A program made the translations under genes and the position numbers. Of a DNA stretch of 52,121 nucleotides, positions 531 through 52,121 are shown piece by piece. The notes under the pieces are model-generated. The model had not been told where the DNA came from, searched no databases, and saw only the letters and a list, made by a program, of their open reading frames with translations. Numbering within the stretch: position 1 is the first letter of the stretch; each line of letters opens with the position of its first letter. The stretch comes from a virus, in IMG/VR virus record IMGVR_UViG_3300005618_000022, positions 1-52,121 of that record; one strand, 5' to 3'.

Positions 531-649
531 CCACCACCTACTATTTTATCTGGAAAATATTGAGATTGGATTAAGAAAGAAATGAGAGAGAAGAAATAAA
601 GAAAAAAAAAGAGATAGGGAAAAGTTGGAGAACAAATAATAGGTGGTGG
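531..649. repeat. 120-bp element with inverted ends, copy 1
   Basis: The left arm CCACCACCTACTATTTTATC (531-550) faces the right arm AAATAATAGGTGGTGG (634-649), so the ends form an imperfect inverted repeat of about 16 bp. The interior is almost pure purine on the plus strand, with runs of A and GA. A second element with the same ends and nearly the same length lies at 22966-23086, although its interior differs. The whole gap 530-701 between the endolysin and the protease lipoprotein is otherwise non-coding and probably also holds the promoter of the downstream genes. Confidence 0.8.
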
Positions 650-4877: not shown

Positions 4878-4987
4878 CTCCGGGTCGCGTGTTTGTTGTG
4901 ATGTGGATGCTCGTGACAGCAGCGGCCATGGCCACCTCGCTACGCGCTGTTTATTTGTTGCACGAGCTTGCAAAAGTGTGCCAGTAA
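4874..4987 (+). CDS. Tiny one-helix membrane protein (37 aa)
   Basis: The ATG at 4874 overlaps the previous stop, and the TAA overlaps the next ATG (TAATG). Residues 5-28 (RVFVVMWMLVTAAAMATSLRAVY part) make one membrane helix. It is one of about ten such peptides in this genome. Holin-like or envelope-modifying roles are possible but not shown. Confidence 0.55.
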   Translation: MTPGRVFVVMWMLVTAAAMATSLRAVYLLHELAKVCQ

Positions 4988-5427
4988 TGCCAACAGGATC
5001 GTGGCCTTACAAATCAGAGTCTGTTGCGCGCAGCTTCGGTTGGTTCAACCCAAACGATGCTGAAGCTATTGACAAATTTCCCTCGCCGCCTGAGGTTCCG
5101 CTTGAAATGAAAAATACTGCAGCTCCTCAAAAAGAAGACAAAATGAAGAAGGCACGCTGGGACCTGGTGAGCTTCCGGGCGATGGAGCTCGAAGCTGACG
5201 TGATGGCTTTTGGTGTGGGCAAGCACGAAGATAACGGCGTGCAGAAGTGGCGGAACGAGAGCGTGGACCAGCATTTCGCCTCGCTCATGCGGCACATCTC
5301 GGCGTACCGACGTGGTGAGTACCTCGACCCTGAGACCGGCAAGCCGCACTTGGCGCATGCGCGGTGTCGGTTGGGTTTTTTGCTCGAAATCGAAGAAGCG
5401 AAGCGTGCTGACCAGACAACAGCTTAA
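4987..5427 (+). CDS. DUF5664 protein, putative dATP/dGTP diphosphohydrolase
   Basis: The 146-residue product has an unconserved N-terminus (about 1-55) and then ARWDLVSFRAMELEADVMAFGVGKHEDNG ... followed by SLMRHISAYRRGEYLDPETGKPHLAHARCRLGFLLE. This is the pattern of the DUF5664 domain, also named dATP/dGTP diphosphohydrolase N-terminal. Such enzymes remove pyrophosphate from purine dNTPs. In an operon with PurZ, MazZ-like and DatZ-like enzymes it would fit adjustment of the dGTP or dATP pool. Function is inferred from family and context. Confidence 0.75.
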   Translation: MPTGSWPYKSESVARSFGWFNPNDAEAIDKFPSPPEVPLEMKNTAAPQKEDKMKKARWDLVSFRAMELEADVMAFGVGKHEDNGVQKWRNESVDQHFASLMRHISAYRRGEYLDPETGKPHLAHARCRLGFLLEIEEAKRADQTTA

Positions 5428-9393: not shown

Positions 9394-9575
9394 TGGGTTT
9401 CTACTGCGCCGAGTGCGGTAGTCTCGTCGTCAAAGGGCACGTGTCTGGGCCATGCGTGCTAGAATGCGACCGGTGTCACATGCAGTACAGGAGCGAAGGT
9501 GGTGCTGGTACCAAGTCTGTCATGATCGGGCGAGCTCCTCTTTACGCTTGTGAGCAGCTCTACTTCCGCCGATGA
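9393..9575 (+). CDS. Small zinc-ribbon protein
   Basis: A 60-residue protein with CAECG and CDRCH pairs that should bind one zinc. Its ATG overlaps the previous TGA and its stop overlaps the polymerase ATG, so it is tightly coupled to the DNA polymerase gene. Confidence 0.65.
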   Translation: MGFYCAECGSLVVKGHVSGPCVLECDRCHMQYRSEGGAGTKSVMIGRAPLYACEQLYFRR

Positions 9576-11917
9576 TTGTCATCAACGCGCTGTCGCGCGG
9601 AGACAAGATCGAATTCATCCAACCAGGCGGGTCGTCTATCTGGGTGCCTTGCACTTACGACTTCTTCATCCCAGGCAGCGACCCGCATCCGGTAGCCAAC
9701 TGCCGCAAAGAGAACGGCTGGTACCGAGTAAGCTGTGGAAGCTGGACCGAGCGCAGCGATCAAATACGCTACTGGCACAAGCTGGGAGTGCAGACGTTCG
9801 AAGGCGACGTTTCGCCCATCCGTCGTTATTTCGTCGATCACCCAGACACCCAAATCGGCAAGCCTTATGCGTGCTATCTCGACATTGAGGCTGACTCCAG
9901 AGCTAATTTCTTCCATCTCACCGCTGGCCACGCGCGCGTGCTTTGCTGGACCACGCAAGGCAAAGAGACTGGAAAGATCGTCCACCGCTGCCTGCAGTCA
10001 GACAGCGACGCCGACGAGCGTCGACTACTCGCTGCATTTTGGGAAACGTTCGCGCATTATGATCAGGTTCTCGCCTGGAACGGTGGCCAAATAGACAGCG
10101 ATATCCTGAAGACTGAGCACGCGAAGCACGGATTCGATTTCTATGTCATCGTGCGACGTTCGGCCCGTCTAGGCGTGCTACCCAAATGGTGGCGACGCAA
10201 GCTCTACCTCGATCACCTTGCGTGCTTCAAGCGCAACAACATGAACTCGGGCGATGCCTCAGAGAAGGTGTCTTTCTCCCTCGAGAACATCGGTATGGCT
10301 AAGGTCGGGCGAGGCAAGTCGCATTTCGACAGCTCGCGCACGTGGGAAGCCTGGTATGCCGGAGGCAAGAGCAGGCAAGATCTCAGCGATTACAACGTGG
10401 CTGACGTTGTGCTTGAGAGCGACATAGAGAAGGCGACCGACTACCTGTCTGTGTTTCAGTCTCTGTGCGAGGCGACCTGGGTTTTCCCTGATACGCCAGG
10501 GTTGCAGCCAATGCGCCAAGTAGACGGGCTCATGATGAGCTACGGCAACAGGCGAGGCGTTCACTTCAAGACCAAAGATCATGAAGCCGTCAACCCAGAT
10601 CAGTCTTTCGCTGGTGCTTACTGCGAGGGACCGAACCACGTGGACGAGTTGCGCTCTGAAGACGGGCTTGTGCACAACGTGCATGTGGCCGACTTTAAGT
10701 CACTGTATCCGTCGATCATGATCTCGCTGAACATCTCGCCAGAGCTGATTGGTTTGCCTGGCTCCACGTGTCCTGTGGACGAGGCATCGATGCAGAAGTA
10801 CGGCGTAACGAAGCCGATCACTTTCGGCACCGATGACGAAGGCGTGCTGCCCGAATGCGTGAAAGACATGCTCGCGTTGCGCGAAGAGTGGAAACAGCGC
10901 AGCAAAAAATTTCCCAAGGGATCGCCTGAGGAGCAGGAAGCGTCACGCAAATCAATGGCCTACAAGATGGCTGGGAACGCTTTCATGGGTGTTGCGTGTT
11001 CGCCTTACTCGCGTTATTCCAGCGTAGAGATCGGGCTGGCTATCACGCGCACAGGTGTTTCGCTGATCCACGCAGCTCGAGATGCATGCAGAGCTCGAGG
11101 ATGGCGCGTCATTTACATCGACACAGACTCGCTGTTTGTGGTGGGGCCCACAGTCGAGCAGTTCAAGGAGTTCACCTCGTGGTGCAATGCAGAGTTGTTT
11201 CCGAAGCTGGCGAAAGAATGGGGCTGCCGTGACAACATCTTCTATCTCGACTACGAAAAAGCGTTCGAAGGGATCGCGTTCACCTACGACGTCAAAAAGC
11301 GAAAGTACAATAGGAAGAAGTACGCATATCGCCTGGCTCACAAGGGTTTTACGCCGCCTAAGCCAGGAAAAGAGGTTGACGTTGTTGGTATTGAGTCTAA
11401 AAGAGGAGACTCGTGCGGACTTGCTAGAGAGTTACAAAAAGCAGTCATAGACAAGTTGCTTGGCTCAAAGCCTACAACAGCTGACGAGCTTGTTGCGCTG
11501 ATCGAGAAGTTCCGTTTACGCGTGTTCCACGAGGATCATCCCGTCGAAGCTGTCATGATCAGCAAGGCGATCAAAAAAGAGCTGGCCGATTTCGGAGACA
11601 AGAGCCTGCCCCACGTGAAAGCTGCGCGTCTACTGCAAAACAAGGGGCGAGAGGTTCGCGAGGGAACCAAAGTGCAGTTCGTTGTCGTTAACGGCGAGAA
11701 GAGCAAGAAGTACAACAAAGAAGGTGGCCAGCAGGTCATTCTCGCTGAGGACTACAAGGGCGATTTCGATCGTGTCTGGTTTTGGACCGTAGGGGTCTAC
11801 CCGGGAACGTATCGTATTGTCAAAGCAGCGTTCCCTCATGACGTGCGCTTTGACCGGTTCGCCCGTTACACGAAGTACAACCGGCTCGAGACGGCTGGTC
11901 AGTTGACACTATTCTAG
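9572..11917 (+). CDS. Family B DNA polymerase with 3'-5' exonuclease
   Basis: This polymerase is 781 residues long. Exonuclease motifs are intact: ExoI YLDIEAD (Asp104, Glu106), ExoII AWNGGQID (Asn170, Asp175) and ExoIII YNVAD (Tyr274, Asp278). The polymerase motifs follow: A DFKSLYPSI (Asp374), B YKMAGNAFMG, and C YIDTDSL (Asp517, Asp519). It is shorter than cellular PolB and has no obvious TPR1/TPR2 protein-priming insert, so it is more like RB69- or archaeal-type phage enzymes. It is the likely replicase. Z-DNA phages so far studied mainly use PolA-type DpoZ or a Prim-Pol, so a PolB beside PurZ is notable. The start overlaps the previous stop. Confidence 0.95.
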   Translation: MIVINALSRGDKIEFIQPGGSSIWVPCTYDFFIPGSDPHPVANCRKENGWYRVSCGSWTERSDQIRYWHKLGVQTFEGDVSPIRRYFVDHPDTQIGKPYACYLDIEADSRANFFHLTAGHARVLCWTTQGKETGKIVHRCLQSDSDADERRLLAAFWETFAHYDQVLAWNGGQIDSDILKTEHAKHGFDFYVIVRRSARLGVLPKWWRRKLYLDHLACFKRNNMNSGDASEKVSFSLENIGMAKVGRGKSHFDSSRTWEAWYAGGKSRQDLSDYNVADVVLESDIEKATDYLSVFQSLCEATWVFPDTPGLQPMRQVDGLMMSYGNRRGVHFKTKDHEAVNPDQSFAGAYCEGPNHVDELRSEDGLVHNVHVADFKSLYPSIMISLNISPELIGLPGSTCPVDEASMQKYGVTKPITFGTDDEGVLPECVKDMLALREEWKQRSKKFPKGSPEEQEASRKSMAYKMAGNAFMGVACSPYSRYSSVEIGLAITRTGVSLIHAARDACRARGWRVIYIDTDSLFVVGPTVEQFKEFTSWCNAELFPKLAKEWGCRDNIFYLDYEKAFEGIAFTYDVKKRKYNRKKYAYRLAHKGFTPPKPGKEVDVVGIESKRGDSCGLARELQKAVIDKLLGSKPTTADELVALIEKFRLRVFHEDHPVEAVMISKAIKKELADFGDKSLPHVKAARLLQNKGREVREGTKVQFVVVNGEKSKKYNKEGGQQVILAEDYKGDFDRVWFWTVGVYPGTYRIVKAAFPHDVRFDRFARYTKYNRLETAGQLTLF

Positions 11918-11949: not shown

Positions 11950-12438
11950 ATGACCATCAGACAAATGCTCAAGCAATTCTGCGCTGCTTTCGGGATCAAA
12001 AACCCAGAGTTCCCGATGGTTCCCAACGAGGAAGCGGTGCACAAGGCCGTGCGTCTCATCGCGGAGGAGTTCTGCGAGTTTCTCGAGGCCGTGTACGGCA
12101 AGCAACCTTGGATCGATGAGATTAAAGACATTCTGGCCGACTGCATTGGCTACGACCAGCCAGCCGTCGATCTTGTCGAGGCTGCCGATGCGCTGGGCGA
12201 TACAGCGTATGTCGTAGAGTCAGCATTTCAGGCTTTCGGCATCAACTCCGAGCCTGTGCTGGACGAAATTCATCGTACCAACATGAACAAGCGCGGTGGC
12301 GCCAAACGCGAAGACGGCAAGCAGCTCAAGCCCGAAGGCTGGCAACCTCCGCAAATTGCGCAGATTCTGCATGACCAAGTAGCCAGCTGCAGCCAGCCTT
12401 TCGAAGTAACTCACACCTGGGGAGGCTCGGACATCTAA
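11950..12438 (+). CDS. mazZ: MazG-like nucleotide pyrophosphohydrolase, MazZ-type
   Basis: The 162-residue protein has the all-alpha NTP pyrophosphatase signature: EExxE at 39-43 (IAEEFCEF) and ExxD at 77-80 (EAADALGD) for magnesium. The C-terminal VLDEIHRTNMNKRGG with KREDGKQLKPEGWQPP is usual in phage MazG-like enzymes. In Z-DNA phages the relative MazZ turns dGTP into dGMP, the substrate of PurZ. GGAGG lies 8 bases before the ATG. The MazZ assignment rests on the shared operon with purZ and the HD enzyme; MazG motifs alone would not prove it. Confidence 0.82.
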   Translation: MTIRQMLKQFCAAFGIKNPEFPMVPNEEAVHKAVRLIAEEFCEFLEAVYGKQPWIDEIKDILADCIGYDQPAVDLVEAADALGDTAYVVESAFQAFGINSEPVLDEIHRTNMNKRGGAKREDGKQLKPEGWQPPQIAQILHDQVASCSQPFEVTHTWGGSDI

Positions 12439-14326: not shown

Positions 14327-14619
14327 TGGCAGAGATCTACGGGCCGGATGGCAAAACGCTCATCGGCTACACAATGGATTTGGAAGAGCCGGCTCAGGTC
14401 AGCCCCAAGAACATGGGCGAGCTCATCCCGATCCGCAAGCCGGTGGACGAGGCGATGGAAGAAGTGCGCCAGGCGCGCGAAGTGTTGACAGAAGTGCAAA
14501 AGCGCTTTAACTGTGACGAAGTGATCTACAACGACTCGAAACGTGAGCTCGCAGAGGCGAAAAACGCCATGCGCGCGGCCGTGTACGAGCTCGAACGATC
14601 GCTCTACGCGGAGGATTGA
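14326..14619 (+). CDS. Small coiled-coil protein before purZ
   Basis: The 97-residue protein has a short beta N-terminus (MAEIYGPDGKTLIGYTMD) and a long charged helix in the second half (VDEAMEEVRQAREVLTE ...). It ends 2 bases before the purZ start, and its 3' end carries the purZ ribosome site. Confidence 0.65.
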   Translation: MAEIYGPDGKTLIGYTMDLEEPAQVSPKNMGELIPIRKPVDEAMEEVRQAREVLTEVQKRFNCDEVIYNDSKRELAEAKNAMRAAVYELERSLYAED

Positions 14620-14621
14620 TC

Positions 14622-15740
14622 ATGCGCGGTCATGTTGACGTTGTTCTCGATGCGGCGTACGGCTCTTCTGGCAAGGGCAAGCTGTCTACCTGGCTCGCCG
14701 ATCATAAGGGCTACGCTGGTGTTTCGTCAGCCAACTTCCCGAACGCCGGCCATACGGCGCTCCGTAACGGTTTCAAGTTCGTAGCCAAGGCCATTCCCAC
14801 GGCGGCGATGCTGTGGCGCGACTGCGAAGCCTGGGATTGCGCGTTCTTCCTCACTCCTGGTTCAGGCTTCACCTGGTCACAGCTCACGAAGGAATGGAAG
14901 GAGTGCGGCAAGCCTCCCATCTACATCCACGAAAGAGCGTGTGTCCTCACCGACGAGCATGCGGCGCGTGAGAGGGAAGGGGCCGAAAGCACAGCGCACA
15001 TCGCCAGCACCATGCAGGGCACGGCTGCAGCGATGACCGACAAGATCCTCCGCAAGCAGAACGCTCCTGTTGCTGCCCAGTACAGCGATGCGTTTCTCGC
15101 TCTGGAGGGCGTTCATATCCTGCAAGCCCAGAAGTTCCGTGACGCCATCCACGACATTCTCAGCTACGACGACATCTTGCACGAGGGATCACAAGGATAT
15201 GCGCTCTCTATCGACCACGGCTCGCACTATCCTCAGTGTACTAGCCGCAATTGCACTACCGCTGCCGCTCTGGATTATCTTGGCGTGGCACCTCAGAGAC
15301 TCGGCGACGTCTGGCTCAATATCAGGAGCTATCCAATCCGTGTCGGAAACATCGCCCAGGGTAGCTCTGGCGACTTCTATCCCGACAGCCAGGAAATCAC
15401 ATGGGCAGAAGTGGCGGCAAGAGCTGGAATGCCCTACGATGAGACCATCAAACTCGCCGAGCGTGAACGAACTACCGTCACCAAGCGGATACGTCGAGTA
15501 GCAACGTTCTCGTGGCAGAACCTCGAGGACGCTGTGCGCACGAACGGCGCGACCAAGCTGTGCCTCAACTTCGCCCAGTACATCGATTGGAGCGACAACG
15601 GTAAGCGAGACTTCGACAAGCTGACGCGCAACACGCGCGAATTCGTAGACGAGATCGAGACGAGGACTGGGCTGCCCGTGGCGCTCATCGGCACAGGCGC
15701 AGATCATGAAGACATGGTCGTCAGAGAGGAGTACGTGTGA
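14622..15740 (+). CDS. purZ: PurZ, N6-succino-2-amino-2'-deoxyadenylate synthase
   Basis: This 372-residue member of the adenylosuccinate synthetase family aligns with PurA along its length: the nucleotide loop YGSSGKGK (13-20), NAGHT with catalytic His44, LHEGSQGYALSIDHG, and a C-terminal GTGADHEDMV. Two changes mark it as PurZ. The catalytic Asp of PurA (WGDEGKGK) is Ser15, the hallmark of PurZ. The guanine-recognising TKLD motif reads NFAQ, so use of GTP is unlikely and ATP or dATP likelier. PurZ joins dGMP to aspartate, and host PurB then releases dZMP. The start at 14622 has GGAGG 7 bases before; a TTG two codons up is not preferred. Confidence 0.93.
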   Translation: MRGHVDVVLDAAYGSSGKGKLSTWLADHKGYAGVSSANFPNAGHTALRNGFKFVAKAIPTAAMLWRDCEAWDCAFFLTPGSGFTWSQLTKEWKECGKPPIYIHERACVLTDEHAAREREGAESTAHIASTMQGTAAAMTDKILRKQNAPVAAQYSDAFLALEGVHILQAQKFRDAIHDILSYDDILHEGSQGYALSIDHGSHYPQCTSRNCTTAAALDYLGVAPQRLGDVWLNIRSYPIRVGNIAQGSSGDFYPDSQEITWAEVAARAGMPYDETIKLAERERTTVTKRIRRVATFSWQNLEDAVRTNGATKLCLNFAQYIDWSDNGKRDFDKLTRNTREFVDEIETRTGLPVALIGTGADHEDMVVREEYV

Positions 15741-16132: not shown

Positions 16133-16354
16133 ATGTACGCCATCCGATACAAAGACATTGCAGAGCTCGACGGCACCGACGACATGAACTACTGGCTCGG
16201 TGCCAAAGACCTCGAGAGAGCAGAAAAGCTAGAAGACGTGGTGGTTGACTCGCCTCGTTTCGACAGGCTGAGATTCCGCCAGAAGTCGATCGCGCACCAG
16301 TTGCGTAAGATCATCGGTAAGGATTACTGCGTTGTAGTGAGGATCAGCGAATGA
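16133..16354 (+). CDS. Small protein, unknown function
   Basis: A 73-residue protein just before the HD hydrolase, overlapping its ATG. It contains MNYWLGAKDLERAEKLEDVV and a basic helix (RLRFRQKSIAHQLRKIIG). No family recognised. Confidence 0.6.
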   Translation: MYAIRYKDIAELDGTDDMNYWLGAKDLERAEKLEDVVVDSPRFDRLRFRQKSIAHQLRKIIGKDYCVVVRISE

Positions 16355-16938
16355 ACTTCGAAACCGCTGGCACCGTGAAAGGTGTCTCCAAGATTCCGAC
16401 TTTTTCTGGCCGGAACGTCGATCCTCTGAACCTCTGGCCTGAGGACATCGACATCTCCGATATCGCGCATGCGCTCTCTCGCATTGCTCGCTTCACCGGT
16501 CACACGGACGGCGAGTTTGCGTTCTCAGTCGCACAACACAGCTGCATCGTCTCGGATCAGCTTCCCGACGAGCTCAAGCTGTGGGGCCTGCTGCATGATG
16601 CTTCCGAGGCGTACCTAAACGACGTGTCCCGACCGCTCAAGTATTCGCCTGCGTTCAAGGGCTACCACGCGATCGAAAAGCAGGCGATGGCCGCCATCGT
16701 CGCTAAGTTCAAGCTCAGCCCAGACAACGAGCCAGAGGCAGTGAAACAGGCCGACGTGGTGTCGCTGTCCACCGAGTTCCGCGACCTCATGACCAAGTTC
16801 ACGCAAACCGAATACTGGGAACAAGTCAAGCCGCGTATGCCCAAACCGCTGCCTTTTACCATCGTGCCCTGGGCCCCCCAGCAGGCAGAGTTCGAGTTCC
16901 TCTCGCGTTACGCGCGCATTAACAAGGTGTCGCGGTGA
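16351..16938 (+). CDS. datZ: HD-domain dNTP phosphohydrolase, DatZ-like
   Basis: Length is 195 residues. The HD-fold metal site is visible: SVAQHS gives His63, LLHDASEAYLNDV gives His82-Asp83, and QADVV gives Asp135. The N-terminus (FSGRNVDPLNLWPEDIDI) is typical for a phage HD hydrolase group that includes DatZ, a dATP triphosphohydrolase which strips dATP from the pool so that Z is used in DNA. Similar HD proteins occur in phages without purZ, so the DatZ call rests on the shared operon with purZ and the MazZ-like gene. Confidence 0.8.
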   Translation: MNFETAGTVKGVSKIPTFSGRNVDPLNLWPEDIDISDIAHALSRIARFTGHTDGEFAFSVAQHSCIVSDQLPDELKLWGLLHDASEAYLNDVSRPLKYSPAFKGYHAIEKQAMAAIVAKFKLSPDNEPEAVKQADVVSLSTEFRDLMTKFTQTEYWEQVKPRMPKPLPFTIVPWAPQQAEFEFLSRYARINKVSR

Positions 16939-18707: not shown

Positions 18708-18949
18708 AGGATGCAATCGGAAACGATATCAAGCTTGGCAGCACGATCGTGCACGCCTGCTCTAGCTACGGCCACAGGGTCAGCATGCAGACAGGTGTCG
18801 TGACCAAACTTCGACACGTCGAGCAACAGAGCCGTCGCCGCGGGAACTTCACGCGTGACACGATTTGGTACGATGGCCCCAGGGGCCTCTGCTTTGCGAG
18901 GGATTCCAAGCGAGTCGTCGTTGTGACTTCTCCTGTCGCCAATGCCTAG
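18704..18949 (+). CDS. Small SH3-like barrel candidate, unknown function
   Basis: An 81-residue protein that shares the beginning M-K-D-x-x-G-x-x-I-x-x-G-S with the proteins at 4176 and 29864. The TGVVTKLRH and RRRGNFTRDTIWYDGPRG segments suggest short beta strands and a basic surface. It lies just before the primase and overlaps its start by 8 bases. Confidence 0.65.
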   Translation: MKDAIGNDIKLGSTIVHACSSYGHRVSMQTGVVTKLRHVEQQSRRRGNFTRDTIWYDGPRGLCFARDSKRVVVVTSPVANA

Positions 18950-21167
18950 CAACGTCGTCGAGTTCCAGCAGCTACCGGAACTCTCACCCATGGGCCAGCG
19001 GGCGCTAGAGTACGCGCAAGCTGGCCTATTCGTGTTTCCGGTGTGGGGCCTGCTCGATGACCTTGGTTGCGCCTGTCCCGAGCATGGGAACTGTGGCTCG
19101 CCAGGCAAGCACCCAATGGTCAAGTCTGGTCTCAACGTAGCGACCACGGCGGACGACCAAATCCGCAAGTGGTGGCGCAAGTGGCCTAAGGCTAACATCG
19201 GCATCAACGCCGACAAGTCTGGTCTCCTGATCTTGGACATCGACCCGCGCAACGGTGGCAACGAGTCGCTCGACAAGCTGGAGAAAGAGTATGGCGATCT
19301 GCCGCCCACGTACGAGGTTCGCACTGGTGGAGATGGACGACACTTCTACTTCAAACACGAGCCAGCCGTCAAAAGCAAGCCTATTGCTGCTGGAATCGAC
19401 ATTAAAAGTAAGGGAGGATATGTTGTCGCTCCTCCTTCTCTCCATCATAGTGGCCGCACTTATGAAGCCACTTTGGCTGGCAATCCTCGAGGCTTCATTC
19501 TTGATGCTCCTGACTGGGTTGTCGATCTGTGTACACGAGAGCCTGAAAAGAAAGCTCACTCGCCAAAGCCTGTTGCAAAAGGTCGAGAACCGAAGCAAAT
19601 ACCTGTCGAGTCCGGACTCTACGGTGCAGCTCTCAAGCATGCTGGCTGGCTCGGTGAGTACGTTGGACAGGGACGCTGTGCTTGTCACTGCCCGTTCATT
19701 TCCCAGCACACTTCAGGCGTTGACCTCGATGGATCCTGCGTCGTCTTCGCACCAGAAAATGGCGGCGTTAATGGATACATTCACTGCTCGCACTCCCATT
19801 GCGCCAACAGAACCCAGCCCGAGTTCTGGGCCGCAATTCCCGCCGTATCGCGTGACGCTGCGAAAAGCCAGCTTCAGGTAAATCCACTCTACGAACCTGC
19901 TGCTACCGCTGACGTCGAGTGGTGCAAATCGTGGCGCTCCTCGCTTCTGTTCGATAACAAGGGCAGATTAAAGCGCGTGCTGGGCAACGCGTCCCTCATC
20001 CTCAAGAACCATCCCGAGTTTGCTGGTTGTCTCGGTTTCGACGAATTCAAAGAGAGCTACGTGTGGCTCAAGAAACCGCCGTCCATCGTCGGGCTTGATG
20101 ACGTGAAGCTCGGCCCAGTGAAGGACGAGCACTTCCTGCAGATCGGCTATTACCTGTCTGCGCGCTACGATATGCAAGAGTTCTCGTCAGACAACATCTT
20201 CCAAATCATGCGTGGCGCTGCGATCCCGTTTCATCCCGTGCGAGATTACCTGAACTCGCTCGTGTGGGACAAAAAGCCTCGTCTCATTAAGTGGTTGTCC
20301 ACGTACCTGGGAACGCCTGACGACAAGTACACGCGTCTCGTTGGGCCCATGTGGTTCGTTTCTGGTGTGGCTCGCATCGCAGAGCCAGGATGCAAGGCTG
20401 ACCATGTCCTCATTCTCGAAGGAAAGCAAGGAACGCAGAAGTCTACAGCTCTCCGTATTGTCTTTCAGCCTTGGTTTGCTGACACCCCTATTAACCTCGA
20501 TAGTAAAGACGCCTACACTGCTCTGCGAGGAATCTGGGGATACGAGCTGCAAGAGCTACAGTCACTTTCTAAAGCCGATACGGATAAGGCGAAAGCATTT
20601 TTTTCCTCTCCTGTTGACATATACCGCAAACCTTACGACAGAACCACCGTCGAGATCAAACGACAGTGCATCTTCTGTGGAACGGTAAATTACGATGTCT
20701 ATCTCAAAGACGGCTCGGGCAATAGGCGTTATCTCCCTGTGGCAACAGGGAAGATTAACATTCCCGCACTCGAACGAGATAGAGACCAGCTTTGGGCTGA
20801 GGCCGTCGAGATGTACAACAAGGGTTTCAAGTGGTACCCTGAAACAGACGAGGAACACGAGCTCTGCCACGACGAGCAAGAGAAGCGACTGCAACTCGAC
20901 GAAGACCCGTGGACCGAGACCGTGCGACAAGCAACGGAGAACCTCACGCATTGCACGGTGGCTCAGCTTCTGGCTGACCCCATCCATTTCCCGCACTGTA
21001 AGCGTGACCTCAAAGACGCCATCCGCGTTGCGCGCATCTTGCGTGAGCTCGGCTGGGAGAAGTACAACACTGCCAATGGTAAAGCCTGGCGCCTGATCAA
21101 CCGCAACGAGAACGAGAGGAAAACGCCAAATGAACTGGACAACAATGCTAGTCTGCTTACTCGGTGA
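18942..21167 (+). CDS. Prim-Pol and VirE-type primase-helicase
   Basis: A 741-residue two-domain protein. The N-terminal primase-polymerase (AEP) domain shows ALEYAQAGLFVFPV, GKHPMVKSGL, the LDIDPRNGG catalytic DxD (Asp99, Asp101), the GGDGRHFYF His motif and GGYVVAPPSLHHSG. The C-terminal VirE-like SF3-type helicase domain holds ILEGKQGTQKST (Walker A) and ELQELQSLSKAD, then GNRRYLPV. It should synthesise primers and unwind DNA. In cyanophage S-2L a Prim-Pol copies Z-DNA, so this enzyme may also act as a polymerase here beside PolB. Confidence 0.9.
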   Translation: MPSNVVEFQQLPELSPMGQRALEYAQAGLFVFPVWGLLDDLGCACPEHGNCGSPGKHPMVKSGLNVATTADDQIRKWWRKWPKANIGINADKSGLLILDIDPRNGGNESLDKLEKEYGDLPPTYEVRTGGDGRHFYFKHEPAVKSKPIAAGIDIKSKGGYVVAPPSLHHSGRTYEATLAGNPRGFILDAPDWVVDLCTREPEKKAHSPKPVAKGREPKQIPVESGLYGAALKHAGWLGEYVGQGRCACHCPFISQHTSGVDLDGSCVVFAPENGGVNGYIHCSHSHCANRTQPEFWAAIPAVSRDAAKSQLQVNPLYEPAATADVEWCKSWRSSLLFDNKGRLKRVLGNASLILKNHPEFAGCLGFDEFKESYVWLKKPPSIVGLDDVKLGPVKDEHFLQIGYYLSARYDMQEFSSDNIFQIMRGAAIPFHPVRDYLNSLVWDKKPRLIKWLSTYLGTPDDKYTRLVGPMWFVSGVARIAEPGCKADHVLILEGKQGTQKSTALRIVFQPWFADTPINLDSKDAYTALRGIWGYELQELQSLSKADTDKAKAFFSSPVDIYRKPYDRTTVEIKRQCIFCGTVNYDVYLKDGSGNRRYLPVATGKINIPALERDRDQLWAEAVEMYNKGFKWYPETDEEHELCHDEQEKRLQLDEDPWTETVRQATENLTHCTVAQLLADPIHFPHCKRDLKDAIRVARILRELGWEKYNTANGKAWRLINRNENERKTPNELDNNASLLTR

Positions 21168-22787: not shown

Positions 22788-22805
22788 TGTGAACGCCCGT
22801 TCACA
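22788..22805. promoter_or_regulatory. Perfect palindrome, likely operator
   Basis: TGTGAACG and CGTTCACA flank a CC centre, giving a perfect 8-bp inverted repeat 25 bases after the last plus-strand stop. It has no T run, so a DNA-binding dimer site is likelier than a terminator. One of the two regulators in the neighbouring island may bind it. Confidence 0.5.
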
Positions 22806-22965
22806 GTAGGAGATTGTCACACATCTACACACATTGTAGGAGTCGCACCTACACGTGTCGCCAAGCCACCTACTCGCACCTACATCGACAGAATAGTAGG
22901 TATCGGAACCCCACACCGACTTACTCGAGCCTACTCGAGCGTCTCTCGTGGGTATTTCTGGAATA

Positions 22966-23086
22966 CACCACCTACCATTTTATCCCCGAAATATCTAGGG
23001 TAGGTTTTGAAAAGAAAATGTAGGAAAAAAAAAGTAAATGTAAAAAAGTCGGGGGGAAAAATTTTCGGAAAAATAATAGGTGGTGG
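22966..23086. repeat. 120-bp element with inverted ends, copy 2
   Basis: CACCACCTACCATTTTATC (22966-22984) faces AAATAATAGGTGGTGG (23071-23086). The right arm is identical to that of copy 1 at 634-649 and the left arm differs by one base. The length (121 bp) matches copy 1 (119 bp). The interior is again A-rich and purine-rich on the plus strand but not the same sequence. Confidence 0.8.
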
Positions 23087-23092
23087 GTGGTG

Positions 23093-23137
23093 CGGAAATG
23101 TCAGCCGGCGGGCTCGAGTATACGGAAATGTCAGCCG
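23093..23137. repeat. Direct repeat of 15 bp, period 30
   Basis: CGGAAATGTCAGCCG occurs at 23093-23107 and again at 23123-23137, right after element copy 2. The spacing of 30 bp is close to three helical turns, so two protein dimers could sit on the same face. Confidence 0.65.
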
Positions 23138-23289
23138 AGGGCCTTCCGGAACCTACTATTTATGACCATGACAGAGCTGTCATACCTTGCATCGATGCAA
23201 TATACTCGGATACGCATCCGCCCAGAAGGCTCTGGAAGCCCTCCGGACGAGCTCGAGTATCTCTAAGCTATAAGTATAGCTGGTCAATT

Positions 23290-23491
23290 CCGCAAGACAC
23301 AGGACGCCAAAAGCGCGTGTCAGGACGGAGAAAAGAGAACGACCATAGACGACCATACCAGCAGGAGCTCATCCTAACCGGTTCAGAGAACGCAAACCAG
23401 TTAGACGGCCTCAGGCTGTTCGGAATATCTGGATATAGCACCCCCTATCCGCAAGACACAGGACGAGAACACGCCGTGTCAGGACGGAGAA
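23290..23491. repeat. Two copies of a 43-bp unit with conserved ends
   Basis: CCGCAAGACACAGGACG followed by CGTGTCAGGACGGAGAA occurs at 23290-23332 and 23449-23491, 159 bp apart and with the same spacing. Only the ~9 bases between the two blocks differ. Each unit can fold by GACAC/GTGTC pairing. The gap between units has no credible gene. Confidence 0.7.
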
Positions 23492-23553
23492 CGAGGATAA
23501 GCAGATATCACCCCCCGAGAGTAGTGGCTCAGGGGGGAATATCTGGATATAGC
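23422..23553. repeat. Direct repeat of 18 bp
   Basis: GGAATATCTGGATATAGC is present at 23422-23439 and 23536-23553, 114 bp apart. The second copy takes part in the hairpin at 23504-23543. Confidence 0.65.
23504..23543. other. Strong hairpin between convergent genes
   Basis: GATAT-CA-CCCCCC-GAG pairs with CTC-A-GGGGGG-A-ATATC, a stem of 14 bp with small bulges and an 8-base loop. It lies in the convergent gap between the plus-strand operon and the minus-strand island and may stop transcription from either side, but neither side shows a T run. Confidence 0.5.
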
Positions 23554-23608
23554 TGGGCTGACCTGAAAGCGCGAGGACGAGAAGAGAGCGTGGCAGCGCT
23601 GGCCAATC

Positions 23609-23857
23609 TCAGAATAGGTCGAGAGAACGTTCGTCTTTGAACGTCCAGAGCTCCGACCCTCCACAGAAGACGACCAGCCCGATCTCCTGCAGCCGGCACA
23701 GGCACCAACCCACCTCCACCGTGGACATGCCCAGAGACTGGGCCAGGCGTTGGGTACTCGCACCTCCCCTTACAGAGAGCTCTGCGAGAACACGGCGGAT
23801 GGAGAACCGCGGGTGATACTTACTGCTGCGGGGAATGTATGTGTTGTCGGTAATCAT
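23609..23857 (-). CDS. Winged-helix DNA-binding protein
   Basis: A protein of 82 residues. FSIRRVLAELSVRGGASTQRLAQSLGMSTVEVGWCLCRLQEIGLVVFCGG is a helix-turn-helix with recognition helix (STVEVGWCLCRLQ) and a wing, as in MarR/IclR-type and phage wHTH regulators. It is the last gene of the minus-strand island and faces the repeat-rich region, so it is a candidate to bind those repeats. Its ATG overlaps the upstream stop. Confidence 0.75.
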   Translation of the reverse strand: MITDNTYIPRSSKYHPRFSIRRVLAELSVRGGASTQRLAQSLGMSTVEVGWCLCRLQEIGLVVFCGGSELWTFKDERSLDLF

Positions 23858-33966: not shown

Positions 33967-34196
33967 GACAGGAATCCAGGCGTCGGGGGCAGAGGTCCGT
34001 TGAACTTCTCGACGTTTTGCGCGAGACGCACGAAGTCTCGCTTGATCTCGGGCGGCAGCTGCGAATCCCAGAAGAAGTCGCGCGCGCTGGAGAAGGACGG
34101 GATGCGGTTCGTCTCTTGTGCTTCGAGGATCTGCTCGATGAAGATGACCCCGAAGATCATTCGAGCTTCTGTCTCGTAGGGAACGATGATTTTCAT
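33960..34196 (-). CDS. Small protein, unknown function
   Basis: A 78-residue product from ATG 34196, in an ATGA-type overlap with the previous gene. Content: MIFGVIFIEQILEAQ and SARDFFWDSQLPPEIKRDFVRLAQ. No family recognised. Confidence 0.6.
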   Translation of the reverse strand: MKIIVPYETEARMIFGVIFIEQILEAQETNRIPSFSSARDFFWDSQLPPEIKRDFVRLAQNVEKFNGPLPPTPGFLSC

Positions 34197-42426: not shown

Positions 42427-42834
42427 ATGCACGAAGTAAGATCTGCAGATACGTCTAACGACGCTACATTTTCTCTCCAATGGCTTGGCATCATTGGTGG
42501 TGCTGCGCTGGGTAACGATGCAGCTCCCACCAATTTGGGCTCTGTACCTGCTAACCGCATTTTGCGATGCACCGCGAAACGTAACGGCGTCGTTACAATG
42601 GGCGGTATGACACTGCGCATGGTCATCGCCGACGGCACTTCGCTGGTTGTGCGGCCGTGGTTCTACGACGATACGCAAGCGATTTGGATTCCGCACGGTA
42701 CGGCGCAAACCCTCACTGCGGCGTCTACCAACACAGCAAGCGTTGTTGTTGGTAACATGGGTGGTGCTAAGTTCTTCATGCAAATCACCACAAACACCGG
42801 CAACGTTTCTGCTCTCGGATACGACTTCGTATAA
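42427..42834 (+). CDS. Beta-rich virion protein candidate, paralog A
   Basis: The 135-residue product is rich in Thr, Asn, Val and Gly. It shares with the next gene ANRI(L/F)RC(T/S)AKRN, VIADGTSL, a W(I/L)PHGT segment, GAK and (M/I)QI-x-x-NTG at matching positions, so the two are tandem paralogs. They lie among head genes, so decoration or fibre roles fit. GAGG lies before the ATG. Confidence 0.65.
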   Translation: MHEVRSADTSNDATFSLQWLGIIGGAALGNDAAPTNLGSVPANRILRCTAKRNGVVTMGGMTLRMVIADGTSLVVRPWFYDDTQAIWIPHGTAQTLTAASTNTASVVVGNMGGAKFFMQITTNTGNVSALGYDFV

Positions 42835-43262
42835 TGGAACTCGCTCGCAGCGCTTCAACAGCAAACGATAGCACGTTCTCGATCGCCAATTGGGTCGGGA
42901 CTTTGGGCGGTGCTGCGCTGTCGGTCGACAACGATCCTAATACGACTCCGCCTCCGGCTAACCGCATCTTCAGATGCTCGGCGAAACGCAACGCCACTGC
43001 TCATATGGCGGGGGGTAGCAGCCCGTTCGGGATGTTCTTCAAGGTCGTAATCGCAGACGGTACTAGCTTGCAAGCTCGCGCGTGGCTGTTCGATAGCACG
43101 CAAAACAAATGGCTTCCACATGGCACTACGCTAACCCTTACCTTTGCTACTGGCAACGTAGGGAACGTTGGCGCTCAAATTAACAACGTTAATGGAGCGA
43201 AGGCGTTCATCCAAATTCTGGCCAACACAGGCTGCACCGTTATGGGGTTCGACGTATGCTAA
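42834..43262 (+). CDS. Beta-rich virion protein candidate, paralog B
   Basis: The 142-residue paralog of the protein at 42427, coupled by a TAATG overlap. It has ANRIFRCSAKRN, VVIADGTSLQARAWLFD, WLPHGT and AFIQILANTG. An extra Gly/Ser/Pro insertion (AGGSSPFGMF) separates it from paralog A. Its 3' end overlaps the next gene by 7 bases. Confidence 0.65.
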   Translation: MELARSASTANDSTFSIANWVGTLGGAALSVDNDPNTTPPPANRIFRCSAKRNATAHMAGGSSPFGMFFKVVIADGTSLQARAWLFDSTQNKWLPHGTTLTLTFATGNVGNVGAQINNVNGAKAFIQILANTGCTVMGFDVC

Positions 43263-49686: not shown

Positions 49687-50154
49687 ATGAGCACGCCGTA
49701 TCCGCTTACTAATGGCGTTCGTCATAGCTGGGCCTCCGTTGAGATCAAGCTTGGCGACGACATCATCCTCGGCCTTACCGAGATCAACTACAAAGACAAC
49801 CTCGACCCGGCTATTGTGCGTGGCGCTGGCCCGCGGCCGATCGCTTTCACAACGGGTAACTACGAGGCTGACGGCGACTTTACCATCCTTCTCGAGGAGT
49901 TCAACACTCTAATCCAGAAGCTCGGCGAAGGTTGGAAGACTGTACAGTTCGACATCATCGTCACGTACGATGAGTCGAAGTCTGGCCTTTCGACGATCGT
50001 CGACACGATCAAAGGCGCTCGCATCACAAGCACAGAGGGTAACAACACCTCTGGTAACGCTGATCCTTCCGCTCGCAAGCTTCCCTTCAAATGCTTGGAT
50101 ATCTTGTGGAACGGCGTCAGCTCGCTTCCTCCTCAGGCTCAAGTTAGCGCGTAA
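49687..50154 (+). CDS. Tail tube protein
   Basis: A 155-residue product. VRHSWASVEIKLGDDIILGLTEINYKDNLDPAIVRGAGPRPIAFTTGNYEADGDFTILLEE is the tail tube pattern of contractile phages of this group (DUF2597/6097-like). It lies just after the sheath. The stop overlaps the next ATG (TAATG). Confidence 0.88.
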   Translation: MSTPYPLTNGVRHSWASVEIKLGDDIILGLTEINYKDNLDPAIVRGAGPRPIAFTTGNYEADGDFTILLEEFNTLIQKLGEGWKTVQFDIIVTYDESKSGLSTIVDTIKGARITSTEGNNTSGNADPSARKLPFKCLDILWNGVSSLPPQAQVSA

Positions 50155-50393
50155 TGTCTGACTACGGTCCGGGCAGCTCTCACTTTGCAATGGAAGGCGA
50201 TGACTTCCACTGCTCGACATGTGCATTCCTCGTCGGAAAACAACAGTGCGAGAACGAAGATTTCGCAAAGTTCATGAAAAAGACGAGTACGCCTGTGAGA
50301 CTGCCCGTGATCCCAGAGAAATACTGCTGTAACGCTTATCGTCCCAGAGAAAAGGCAGCCGCTGAGCTGCACTGGGTTACTTCCTTGTCTTAA
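50154..50393 (+). CDS. Small cysteine-rich protein in tail operon
   Basis: The 79-residue product has CSTCAFLVGKQQC and CCNAYRPREKAA, a four- to five-Cys pattern that could bind an iron-sulfur cluster or zinc. It is coupled to the tube gene. Role unknown. Confidence 0.6.
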   Translation: MSDYGPGSSHFAMEGDDFHCSTCAFLVGKQQCENEDFAKFMKKTSTPVRLPVIPEKYCCNAYRPREKAAAELHWVTSLS

Positions 50394-50420
50394 TCCATTT
50401 CCTATAACAGGAGTCCAACA

Positions 50421-50753
50421 ATGGAAAAGATCTCAGAAGAGAAATTCGCAGAGCTCGAGTCCGAGCATGGTGAAATCGCGGTAGTGACGACGAAGCTTGG
50501 TGACGTGGCGTTCCGCCGTCCCAAGCGCGCCGAGTACGATCGATACCTCAGCTTCTTGTTTGACGAGAAGAAGCGCCCCAAGGCGCAAGAGGTGATCGTG
50601 CGATCGTGCCGCATTTACCCGACGGGCGAAGAGTTCGACAAGATGATCCAGGAAGCTCCTGGCATCTGTGTTACGTGTTCGGGCGCTGTGCTCGAACTGG
50701 CTGGTCAAGTCGCTGAACCGGAGGTACGCAAAAGCTCGGGATCAGATTCGTAA
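50421..50753 (+). CDS. Tail assembly chaperone, upstream frame
   Basis: The 110-residue product resembles the DUF6848-type tail chaperone: DVAFRRPKRAEYDRYLSFLF, VRSCRIYPTGEEFDKMIQEAPGICVTCSGAVLELAGQ. It lies between tube and tape measure, the normal place of the chaperone pair. A second frame overlaps its end (50668-50901), see next entry. Confidence 0.8.
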   Translation: MEKISEEKFAELESEHGEIAVVTTKLGDVAFRRPKRAEYDRYLSFLFDEKKRPKAQEVIVRSCRIYPTGEEFDKMIQEAPGICVTCSGAVLELAGQVAEPEVRKSSGSDS

Positions 50754-50901
50754 GGATTTGAACTTCGCAGCTTGTTGCTACCAAGAACTGCTCCATCCCA
50801 CTGGACAGTTTGACGGCGAAACAAGCGATGAGATGGCCAACACCGCTGCTTTTGAGTTAGCAACGGCTGTCAACCTCATCATTCAAGCGCACACGCGATA
50901 A
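50668..50901 (+). CDS. Tail assembly chaperone, downstream frame
   Basis: A frame in +1 (equivalently -2) register to the upstream chaperone, overlapping it by 86 bases. The plausible part is YAKARDQIRKDLNFAACCYQELLHPTGQFDGE ... AFELATAVNLIIQ. It has no good start (GTG 50668 only, without a ribosome site), so it is probably made by frameshift near the CGGAGGTACGCAAAAGC region (~50717-50733). The tape measure gene follows within 12 bases. The frameshift model is inference. Confidence 0.55.
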   Translation: MLRVRALCSNWLVKSLNRRYAKARDQIRKDLNFAACCYQELLHPTGQFDGETSDEMANTAAFELATAVNLIIQAHTR

Positions 50902-50913
50902 GAGCTTCTGCAA

Positions 50914-52121
50914 ATGCCGGACAGTCTGAAATTTCAAATCCAGCTAATCGACAAGCTTACTAAGCCTGGGAAGGAAATGGCTTCCCAGATGCAGAAGCTC
51001 AAGTTGCAACTTAGTGCCGCTGAAAAAGCGGTAAAGCAGACCGAAGCTGCTATGGCTAAGTTGCAAAAGGGGCCGCTGAATCCAACTGCGCTCAGCAAAT
51101 GGATGGAGCTTAACAAGGCTCTTCAGGCAAACAAGTCTGCAGCGGCCGGCTACCAAGAGCAGATCTTGGGCCTCGCCAGCAAAATGAACCAAGCGGAAAA
51201 GCCGACCCTCAATCTGGGCGCGGCTTTTACGTTTCTCGGCGAGTCGGGTATTGGTGCGGCGATAGCCTTCGAGGGAGCTGCAGTTGCAGGCGGTATGGCT
51301 CTCTCGTTGGCTGCGTCTGAAGCGAAGAACGATACGCTCGATGCACTCGAAGCGTTTCTCGACACGGCAGACGATGCAGACAAGGTCTACAATCGCCTGA
51401 CCGACATGACCGATCATATTGCGATCACTCAGAACCGAGGATCGCAGTTGGCGCGCGAGCTCTCAGCAGCCGGCGTTACAAATGCAGACGCTCTTACCGA
51501 TGCGATCGAATCGATCGGGATGGTGGAGTCTGTGCTCGGATCTGGTGCCGGCGAGAAGATCCAGAGCATCATCGAGAAAGCCACGGCCGGTGGCAAGTTC
51601 GATGTTAACGCCAAAGCGCTAAAAGGCACTGGCGTTCAGATGAGCGCGATCGCTCAGGCTCTCGGTATTACGCAGCCTCAGCTCGAAGCTCAGATCAAAG
51701 CTGGCACGATTACCGCAGAGAAGGGAATCGCTGCACTCACCAAAGCTATCAGCAGCAAGTTCGGTGGCGCTGCTTCCAAACAAGTGCTGGACATTGGCTT
51801 TCAGGTCGCGCGTTTGAAAGACGACTTTATGTCTCTGTTCGAGGACGTAAAGGTTGACGGCTTCTTGAGCCAGCTACACGACGTGCTGAACGTGTTCAAC
51901 CAAAGCACGATCTCTGGCAAGGCGCTCAAATTCATCGTTACGGAGACGTTCGATCGGATCTTCAAAGCCGTAGAGGCTGCAGGACCTTACGTAAAGGTCT
52001 TCTTCAAGGGCCTAATTATCATGGCTCTGCAAGCTTATATCGCGCTCAAGCCGCTACTCAAGCAGTTCGATCTGCTTGGCCCAACGGCAGATGGACCGAT
52101 TAAGATGGCTGCAGCTATGAG
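50914..52121 (+). CDS. Tail tape measure protein (3' truncated)
   Basis: The frame is open from ATG 50914 to the window end (about 402 codons). It begins with a helical coiled stretch (SLKFQIQLIDKLTKPGKEMASQ ... LQLSAAEKAVKQTEAAMAKL) and then contains hydrophobic, Ala/Gly-rich helices (AAFTFLGESGIGAAIAFEG) like tape measures of Mu-like phages. It sets tail length and takes part in DNA passage. The rest lies outside the window. Confidence 0.85.
   Translation, partial: MPDSLKFQIQLIDKLTKPGKEMASQMQKLKLQLSAAEKAVKQTEAAMAKLQKGPLNPTALSKWMELNKALQANKSAAAGYQEQILGLASKMNQAEKPTLNLGAAFTFLGESGIGAAIAFEGAAVAGGMALSLAASEAKNDTLDALEAFLDTADDADKVYNRLTDMTDHIAITQNRGSQLARELSAAGVTNADALTDAIESIGMVESVLGSGAGEKIQSIIEKATAGGKFDVNAKALKGTGVQMSAIAQALGITQPQLEAQIKAGTITAEKGIAALTKAISSKFGGAASKQVLDIGFQVARLKDDFMSLFEDVKVDGFLSQLHDVLNVFNQSTISGKALKFIVTETFDRIFKAVEAAGPYVKVFFKGLIIMALQAYIALKPLLKQFDLLGPTADGPIKMAAAM

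Follow-up and report, generated by a model that had tools for sequence, protein, structure and literature searches.

Two distant box-flanked, purine-rich elements in a VapE phage: a probable PriRep-type replication origin and a proposed second site of its initiator

In PICI origins, an AT-rich region lies between two sets of iterons (PMC6092414), and the C-terminal domain of SaPI Rep recognises iterons located just downstream of rep (PMC7581432). The locus described here resembles the PICI/SaPI pri-rep-ori arrangement (PMC6092414, PMC7581432) in its VapE/D5-like initiator candidate with a C-terminal DNA-binding domain, in the downstream placement of the proposed origin, and in the short words that flank an AT-rich tract, however it belongs to a phage of ~62 kb, lies ~1.7 kb past the helicase gene, carries a four-box palindrome, and is accompanied by a second, iteron-free core 22.4 kb away. 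Two origins of similar organisation are known from Bacillus phage SPP1 (PMC6316719), with oriL and oriR resembling our pair in being two distant sites on one phage genome, in an AT-rich unwinding element, and in sites for a single initiator. In contrast to the present phage, the SPP1 origins lie ~13 kb apart, with oriL inside the initiator gene, the unrelated initiator gp38 loads a DnaB helicase, and direct repeats occur at both origins, whereas in the first of our elements (copy 1) the boxes form one inverted pair and ACCTAC words are not repeated. The oriS of herpes simplex virus (PMC12543377) also places inverted initiator boxes around an AT-rich spacer, with a nearby inverted box able to form a hairpin, although the virus and its initiator (UL9, an SF2 helicase) are unrelated and the spacer is much shorter, making this an analogy of layout only. 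Also comparable are the VapE phages Javan589, MissE2, YeP5, PS3, Jess A, and others, in which the strongest word cluster and an AT-rich tract follow VapE and origins are proposed here by layout; unlike the present phage, these keep their iterons essentially at one site, and none has a twin core.

The window, the whole stretch of 52,121 nucleotides analysed here, is overlapped at both ends at 100% by a second contig from this phage (2373 bp at 49749–52121, and 1091 bp at 1–1091), so that the genome closes to 62,215 bp and is circular or circularly permuted. The replication operon occupies 675–22763 on the plus strand, with gene annotation giving a RecA-like AAA_24 protein, exonuclease, SSB, helicase, family B polymerase, PurZ, and primase-helicase. 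Copy 1 (531–649, plus strand), unchanged in the second contig, starts 1 nt past the stop codon of the final late gene, with 25 nt between its end and the opening gene of the replication operon, and copy 2 (22966–23086, plus strand) lies in the large gap behind that operon, the two thus bracketing it as first described from the sequence.

The paired elements of ~120 bp with shared inverted ends described in the earlier note are present. Copy 1 has the left and right arms CCACCACCTACTATTT and AAATAATAGGTGGTGG, and copy 2 the arms CACCACCTACCATTTTAT and AAAATAATAGGTGGTGG, the first base pair of which is unlike that of copy 1. The right arm AAATAATAGGTGGTGG is the same in both copies at 16 of 16 nt; over the 18 nt of the left arm ACCACCTACYATTTTATC the copies differ at one position, each arm retaining its own sequence from copy to copy. 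The earlier note also allowed that the arms might recur at random; a search of the whole record with AATAATAGGTGGTGG at ≤2 mismatches finds the sites of copy 1 and copy 2 only, and the matrix described below finds six sites, all at the two elements. The interiors do differ, as had been proposed, with their alignment scoring only weakly above shuffled sequence (37–62 of 2000 shuffles reach the same score). What had been overlooked is an outer pair of boxes at 22892–22901 and 23151–23160, together with a cluster of ACCTAC words at copy 2.

A position matrix was built from the box common to both copies (an ACCTAYTATT core with its flanks) and the whole 62-kb circle was scanned, revealing exactly six sites at 24.6–31.9 bits, the next best reaching 7.6 bits. 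On leave-one-out, each omitted box still came within the six highest-scoring of 124,430 positions. Copy 1 holds two boxes that face each other, the left, ACCTACTATT (536–545, plus strand), being the top site of the genome at 31.9 bits, and the right, ACCTATTATT (635–644, minus strand), scoring 29.0 bits. Four lie around the centre of copy 2, arranged as a concentric palindrome in which the inner pair faces in and the outer pair faces out. The inner boxes are ACCTACCATT on the left (22970–22979, plus strand, 28.4 bits) and ACCTATTATT on the minus strand on the right (23072–23081, 29.6 bits), and the outer boxes are ACCTACTATT on the minus strand on the left (22892–22901) and ACCTACTATT on the plus strand on the right (23151–23160), both at 24.6 bits. 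The four are spaced by 68, 92, and 69 bp, with the centres of the inner and outer pairs nearly coinciding (23025.5 and 23026), and the outer left box pairs with 23144–23160 as an inverted repeat.

No hexamer in the genome is more tightly clustered than ACCTAC, and no 5-mer more than CCTAC, both at copy 2, where 7 of the 15 copies of ACCTAC, in the window and the circle alike, fall within 400 bp. This clustering exceeds that of the best word in any of 20 block shuffles. Three of the words (at 22847, 22868, and 22878) form an iteron-like group at 22847–22883 on the plus strand, and the word cluster and the concentric palindrome together delimit the proposed origin at 22803–23160 (plus strand), within which words and boxes stand on both sides (22803–22979 and 23072–23160) of an AT tract. 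Copy 1 has a single box per side, with neither repeated ACCTAC words nor outer boxes. The surroundings of copy 2 also contain the word TACTCGAGC in both orientations (22922, 22932, 23111, and 23251) and a direct repeat of CGGAAATGTCAGCCG (23093 and 23123), which may be further binding sites. Past copy 2, at 23263–23596, lie three imperfect repeats of 61 nt with a hairpin-forming GACACAGGACG...CGTGTCAGGACGGAGAA, the first of which folds better than 200 of 200 shuffles and could represent a structured RNA or a protein-binding array.

No stretches of the genome are less stable or more purine-biased than the two tracts that the facing box pairs enclose, with copy 2 tying for second when purine bias is ranked in 100-bp windows. 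That the interiors are purine-rich had been noted before, and the values are 83% purine and ~71% AT in copy 1 (551–634, plus strand), and 73% purine and ~68% AT in copy 2 (22986–23070, plus strand). The copy 1 tract has the lowest stability and the strongest purine bias of all, exceeding copy 2, the second least stable. Both interiors are proposed unwinding elements, and copy 1 in its entirety can be described from its sequence, inverted repeat, box matrix scores, and stability as two inverted boxes around an easily melted, A+G-rich tract. Copy 2, recognised by sequence and inverted repeat, would form the equivalent core inside the larger proposed origin region.

The candidate initiator is a PrimPol-VapE (D5/SF3-like) primase-helicase encoded at 18942–21167 on the plus strand, with Pfam matches to Prim-Pol and VapE-like (the latter with an E value of 3e-72), and a match to PDB entry 7pds both by sequence (E value 1e-40) and by fold (Z 31.3 over residues 329–723, the next entry reaching 14.7). 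Foldseek labels 7pds ‘PriRep1 with dsDNA’, PriRep1 being a satellite initiator. The AlphaFold2 model has pLDDT values mostly of 70–98 in the helicase part and is poor in the N-terminal half, with the C-terminal end showing a helix-helix-helix-wing arrangement at residues 656–720 and a winged helix predicted at 656–724. Pfam, 7pds, and the model together point to a VapE/D5-type helicase with a predicted C-terminal DNA-binding domain, as in PICI and SaPI; the origin-binding domain of SaPI-type initiators occupies this same position (PMC7581432). The first ACCTAC/CCTAC words lie ~1.64 kb past the VapE stop codon (the proposed origin ~1.7 kb past the gene), with several small genes between, compared with typically 0 to 0.6 kb in relatives. 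A small winged-helix-like protein of 82 residues without a Pfam match is encoded beside copy 2 (23609–23857, minus strand), and could be the protein that binds the boxes instead.

To place this layout among other VapE phages, the gap following the VapE-type helicase gene was inspected in eight named phages, including Javan589, MissE2, YeP5, PS3, Jess A, and Aval. In most of these the gap directly after VapE contains clusters of short words, usually together with an AT-rich and sometimes purine-rich tract, the exceptions being Acidovorax phage Aval, where the signal is weak, and PS3, where the gap is mildly AT-rich. Among 80 VapE loci from IMG/VR, the top 7-mer cluster starts ≤1.5 kb downstream of the end of the helicase match in 65, compared with 17% expected by length; as the loci are partly interrelated, these 65 are fewer than 65 independent cases. 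The iterons of many of these loci are GTCCCAC or GTCCTAC, which have a CCYAC core in common with the ACCTAC found here. The survey suggests a simple rule for locating candidate origins in VapE phages, which is to seek the most compact word cluster directly behind the helicase gene. A word cluster alone is not specific without its position and an AT tract, since in Jess A and YeP5 tandem-repeat stretches at other places form stronger clusters. Six complete VapE phage genomes carry their iteron words essentially only in the gap after VapE, apart from isolated copies at other positions, and on this basis the twin arrangement appears to be new, and a second core so far away is unusual among VapE phages.

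Searches of IMG/VR, GTDB genomes, and phage and plasmid records turned up no relative that carries the element, leaving it without an evolutionary test. Nor is such a site recognisable within 5 kb downstream of the closest full-length initiator homologue, and a relative contig at 43% likewise has none. Searches of viral contigs and GTDB for the arm-pair patterns gave, beyond the phage's own contigs, chance matches mostly in AT-rich genomes and without a purine-rich interior. DNA similarity searches of phage and plasmid records with positions 1–1500 and the copy 2 region returned nothing useful, and queries for relatives with the RecA-like protein, primase-helicase, PurZ, terminase, and polymerase returned the same phage or distant ones only.

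Taken with the layout of known VapE loci, the six-box arrangement, the melting tracts, the iteron cluster, and the PriRep1-like initiator make copy 2 very probably a replication origin of PICI/SaPI type. The fuller reading, in which copy 2 and its surroundings (22803–23160) are the main origin, of the type that serves the self-loading PriRep/VapE initiator helicases of phage satellites and VapE phages, and copy 1 is a second site of the same initiator, is probable on the sequence evidence. Copy 1 itself is most likely a second origin or an initiator-bound site, as proposed here. By its resemblance to copy 2, binding of the initiator at copy 1 is rather likely, and the prospect that copy 1 also fires as an active origin falls just short of even. 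Of the protein-bound sites that had been suggested earlier, the origin is thus the one that gains support, from the boxes, unstable tracts, iterons, initiator, and VapE layout, with none emerging for packaging or an ordinary promoter. A packaging site was considered separately and rejected, there being no link with the terminase at 39 kb.

Mechanistically, the winged helix at the C-terminus of PrimPol-VapE may bind the ACCTA-containing boxes and words that flank the purine-rich AT tract. Hexamers would then assemble face to face, the tract would melt, and the helicase would be loaded, with priming carried out by the PrimPol domain or by a partner. Copy 1, as a core only at the boundary of the late and replication operons, would most likely be a second origin or one used late, or else assist copy 2 in cis. 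If this is correct, one VapE/PriRep-type initiator is naturally served by two origins in this phage, a full site with words and four boxes and a bare core with two boxes, which together would show the requirements of such helicases for the start of replication.

It is also possible, although we hold this more tentatively, that copy 2 alone is an origin, the same initiator using copy 1 instead to autorepress the operon, to form a fork barrier leading to concatemers, or as a cis enhancer. Copy 1 has the boxes and the tract without the word cluster and outer boxes and stands immediately upstream of the replication operon, as such a role would have it, and for a barrier there is a precedent in SPP1, where collision of a fork with gp38 at oriR is the proposed trigger of the replication switch (PMC6316719). 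However, a tract even less stable and more purine-biased than that of copy 2 would be needless in a mere operator or barrier. The GC skew also speaks against this possibility and for the main reading, if weakly as a test, with the detrended cumulative skew (elements masked) reaching its minimum at 691, beside copy 1 and 101 bp from its centre, and its maximum at 34,146, and with an amplitude that exceeds 500-bp block shuffles at 0.0005. We place little weight on this minimum, since GC skew finds the proposed origin in one of six control phages and misses the other five, and since the minimum coincides with the boundary of the late and early operons. As a strong proof of an origin the skew was rejected, given the failed controls and the fact that the exact coincidence seen without masking reflects the G excess of the elements themselves.

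Less probable, and in our view unlikely, is that a phage transcription regulator, such as the winged-helix protein encoded at 23609–23857, uses both elements as operators or promoters, marking the ends of the replication operon. Both copies do lie at boundaries of transcription units, the gene of this winged-helix-like protein lies near copy 2, and inverted box pairs are common in operators, however a distance of ~90 bp within a box pair, filled by an A+G tract, would be odd for an operator, no boxes occur at any other operon start, and copy 2 comes after the operon and not ahead of a gene cluster. Nor was a sigma-70-like promoter found at copy 1. A role of the elements as RNA, in which a stem of 16 bp would close off a long loop of unpaired purines (pyrimidines in the antisense) and serve, for instance, as a terminator, Rho-loading, or processing signal, is very improbable. 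For each strand the predicted folds do have greater stability than shuffled sequence (z −2.7 to −5.6), and a minus-strand transcript would be C/U-rich and G-poor, but there is neither a T tract nor a compact hairpin, no minus-strand genes lie close by to the right of copy 1, and the outer boxes and CCTAC cluster of copy 2 would be left unaccounted for. A search of Rfam gave no family matching the elements, a tRNA being the sole match. Despite their terminal inverted repeats and matched lengths, the elements can in practice be dismissed as miniature inverted-repeat transposable elements or recombination sites, and insertion was rejected, with almost unrelated interiors, arms that keep their own sequences, no further copies in the genome or public collections, and flanks (GCCAGATAAC/TCAGTGCTAG and CTGGAATACA/GTGGTGCGGA) that share no target-site duplication, in keeping with the earlier view that this is not a transposon.

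The reading of copy 2 as the main origin meets a complication in the predicted chemistry of the DNA. The PurZ-like protein has the motif GSSGKGK, with a Ser at the Asp13 position, which is a mark of the PurZ group (PMC12884076), and is accompanied by two pyrophosphohydrolase-like genes (dATP/dGTP and NTP) and one gene of the dNMP-phosphatase family. A DpoZ-type polymerase was not found among the genes scanned, which include a family B DNA polymerase instead; together, the 2-aminoadenine (Z-genome) gene set and this polymerase lie at 14616–15740, 4903–5427, 11950–12438, 16351–16938, and 9572–11917. Given PurZ with its Ser, the pyrophosphohydrolases, and the dNMP-phosphatase-family gene, the genome likely contains 2-aminoadenine. 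The predicted base would stabilise AT-rich DNA and make melting harder, which counts against an origin at these tracts, and the 2-aminoadenine literature raises, without settling, the question of how origins open (PMC8342488). Were both the base and the origin confirmed, the phage would be a test case for origin melting under strengthened A:T pairs. A bolder and rather doubtful possibility is that copy 1, as a minimal iteron-free core of one inverted box pair and a strand-asymmetric purine tract between, is a second or even the principal origin of a PriRep-type self-loading helicase in a genome with 2-aminoadenine in place of adenine, where the AT-rich tract would have to open despite three hydrogen bonds per pair.

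Elsewhere in the genome, the neighbouring genes at 42427–42834 and 42834–43262, in the head gene region, share a 40-nt stretch that is 83% identical and are probably a tandem duplication. In the 10,094 bp beyond the window the late gene region continues, with a cluster of TGTTAA/GTTAACA words at circle position ~59.7 kb.
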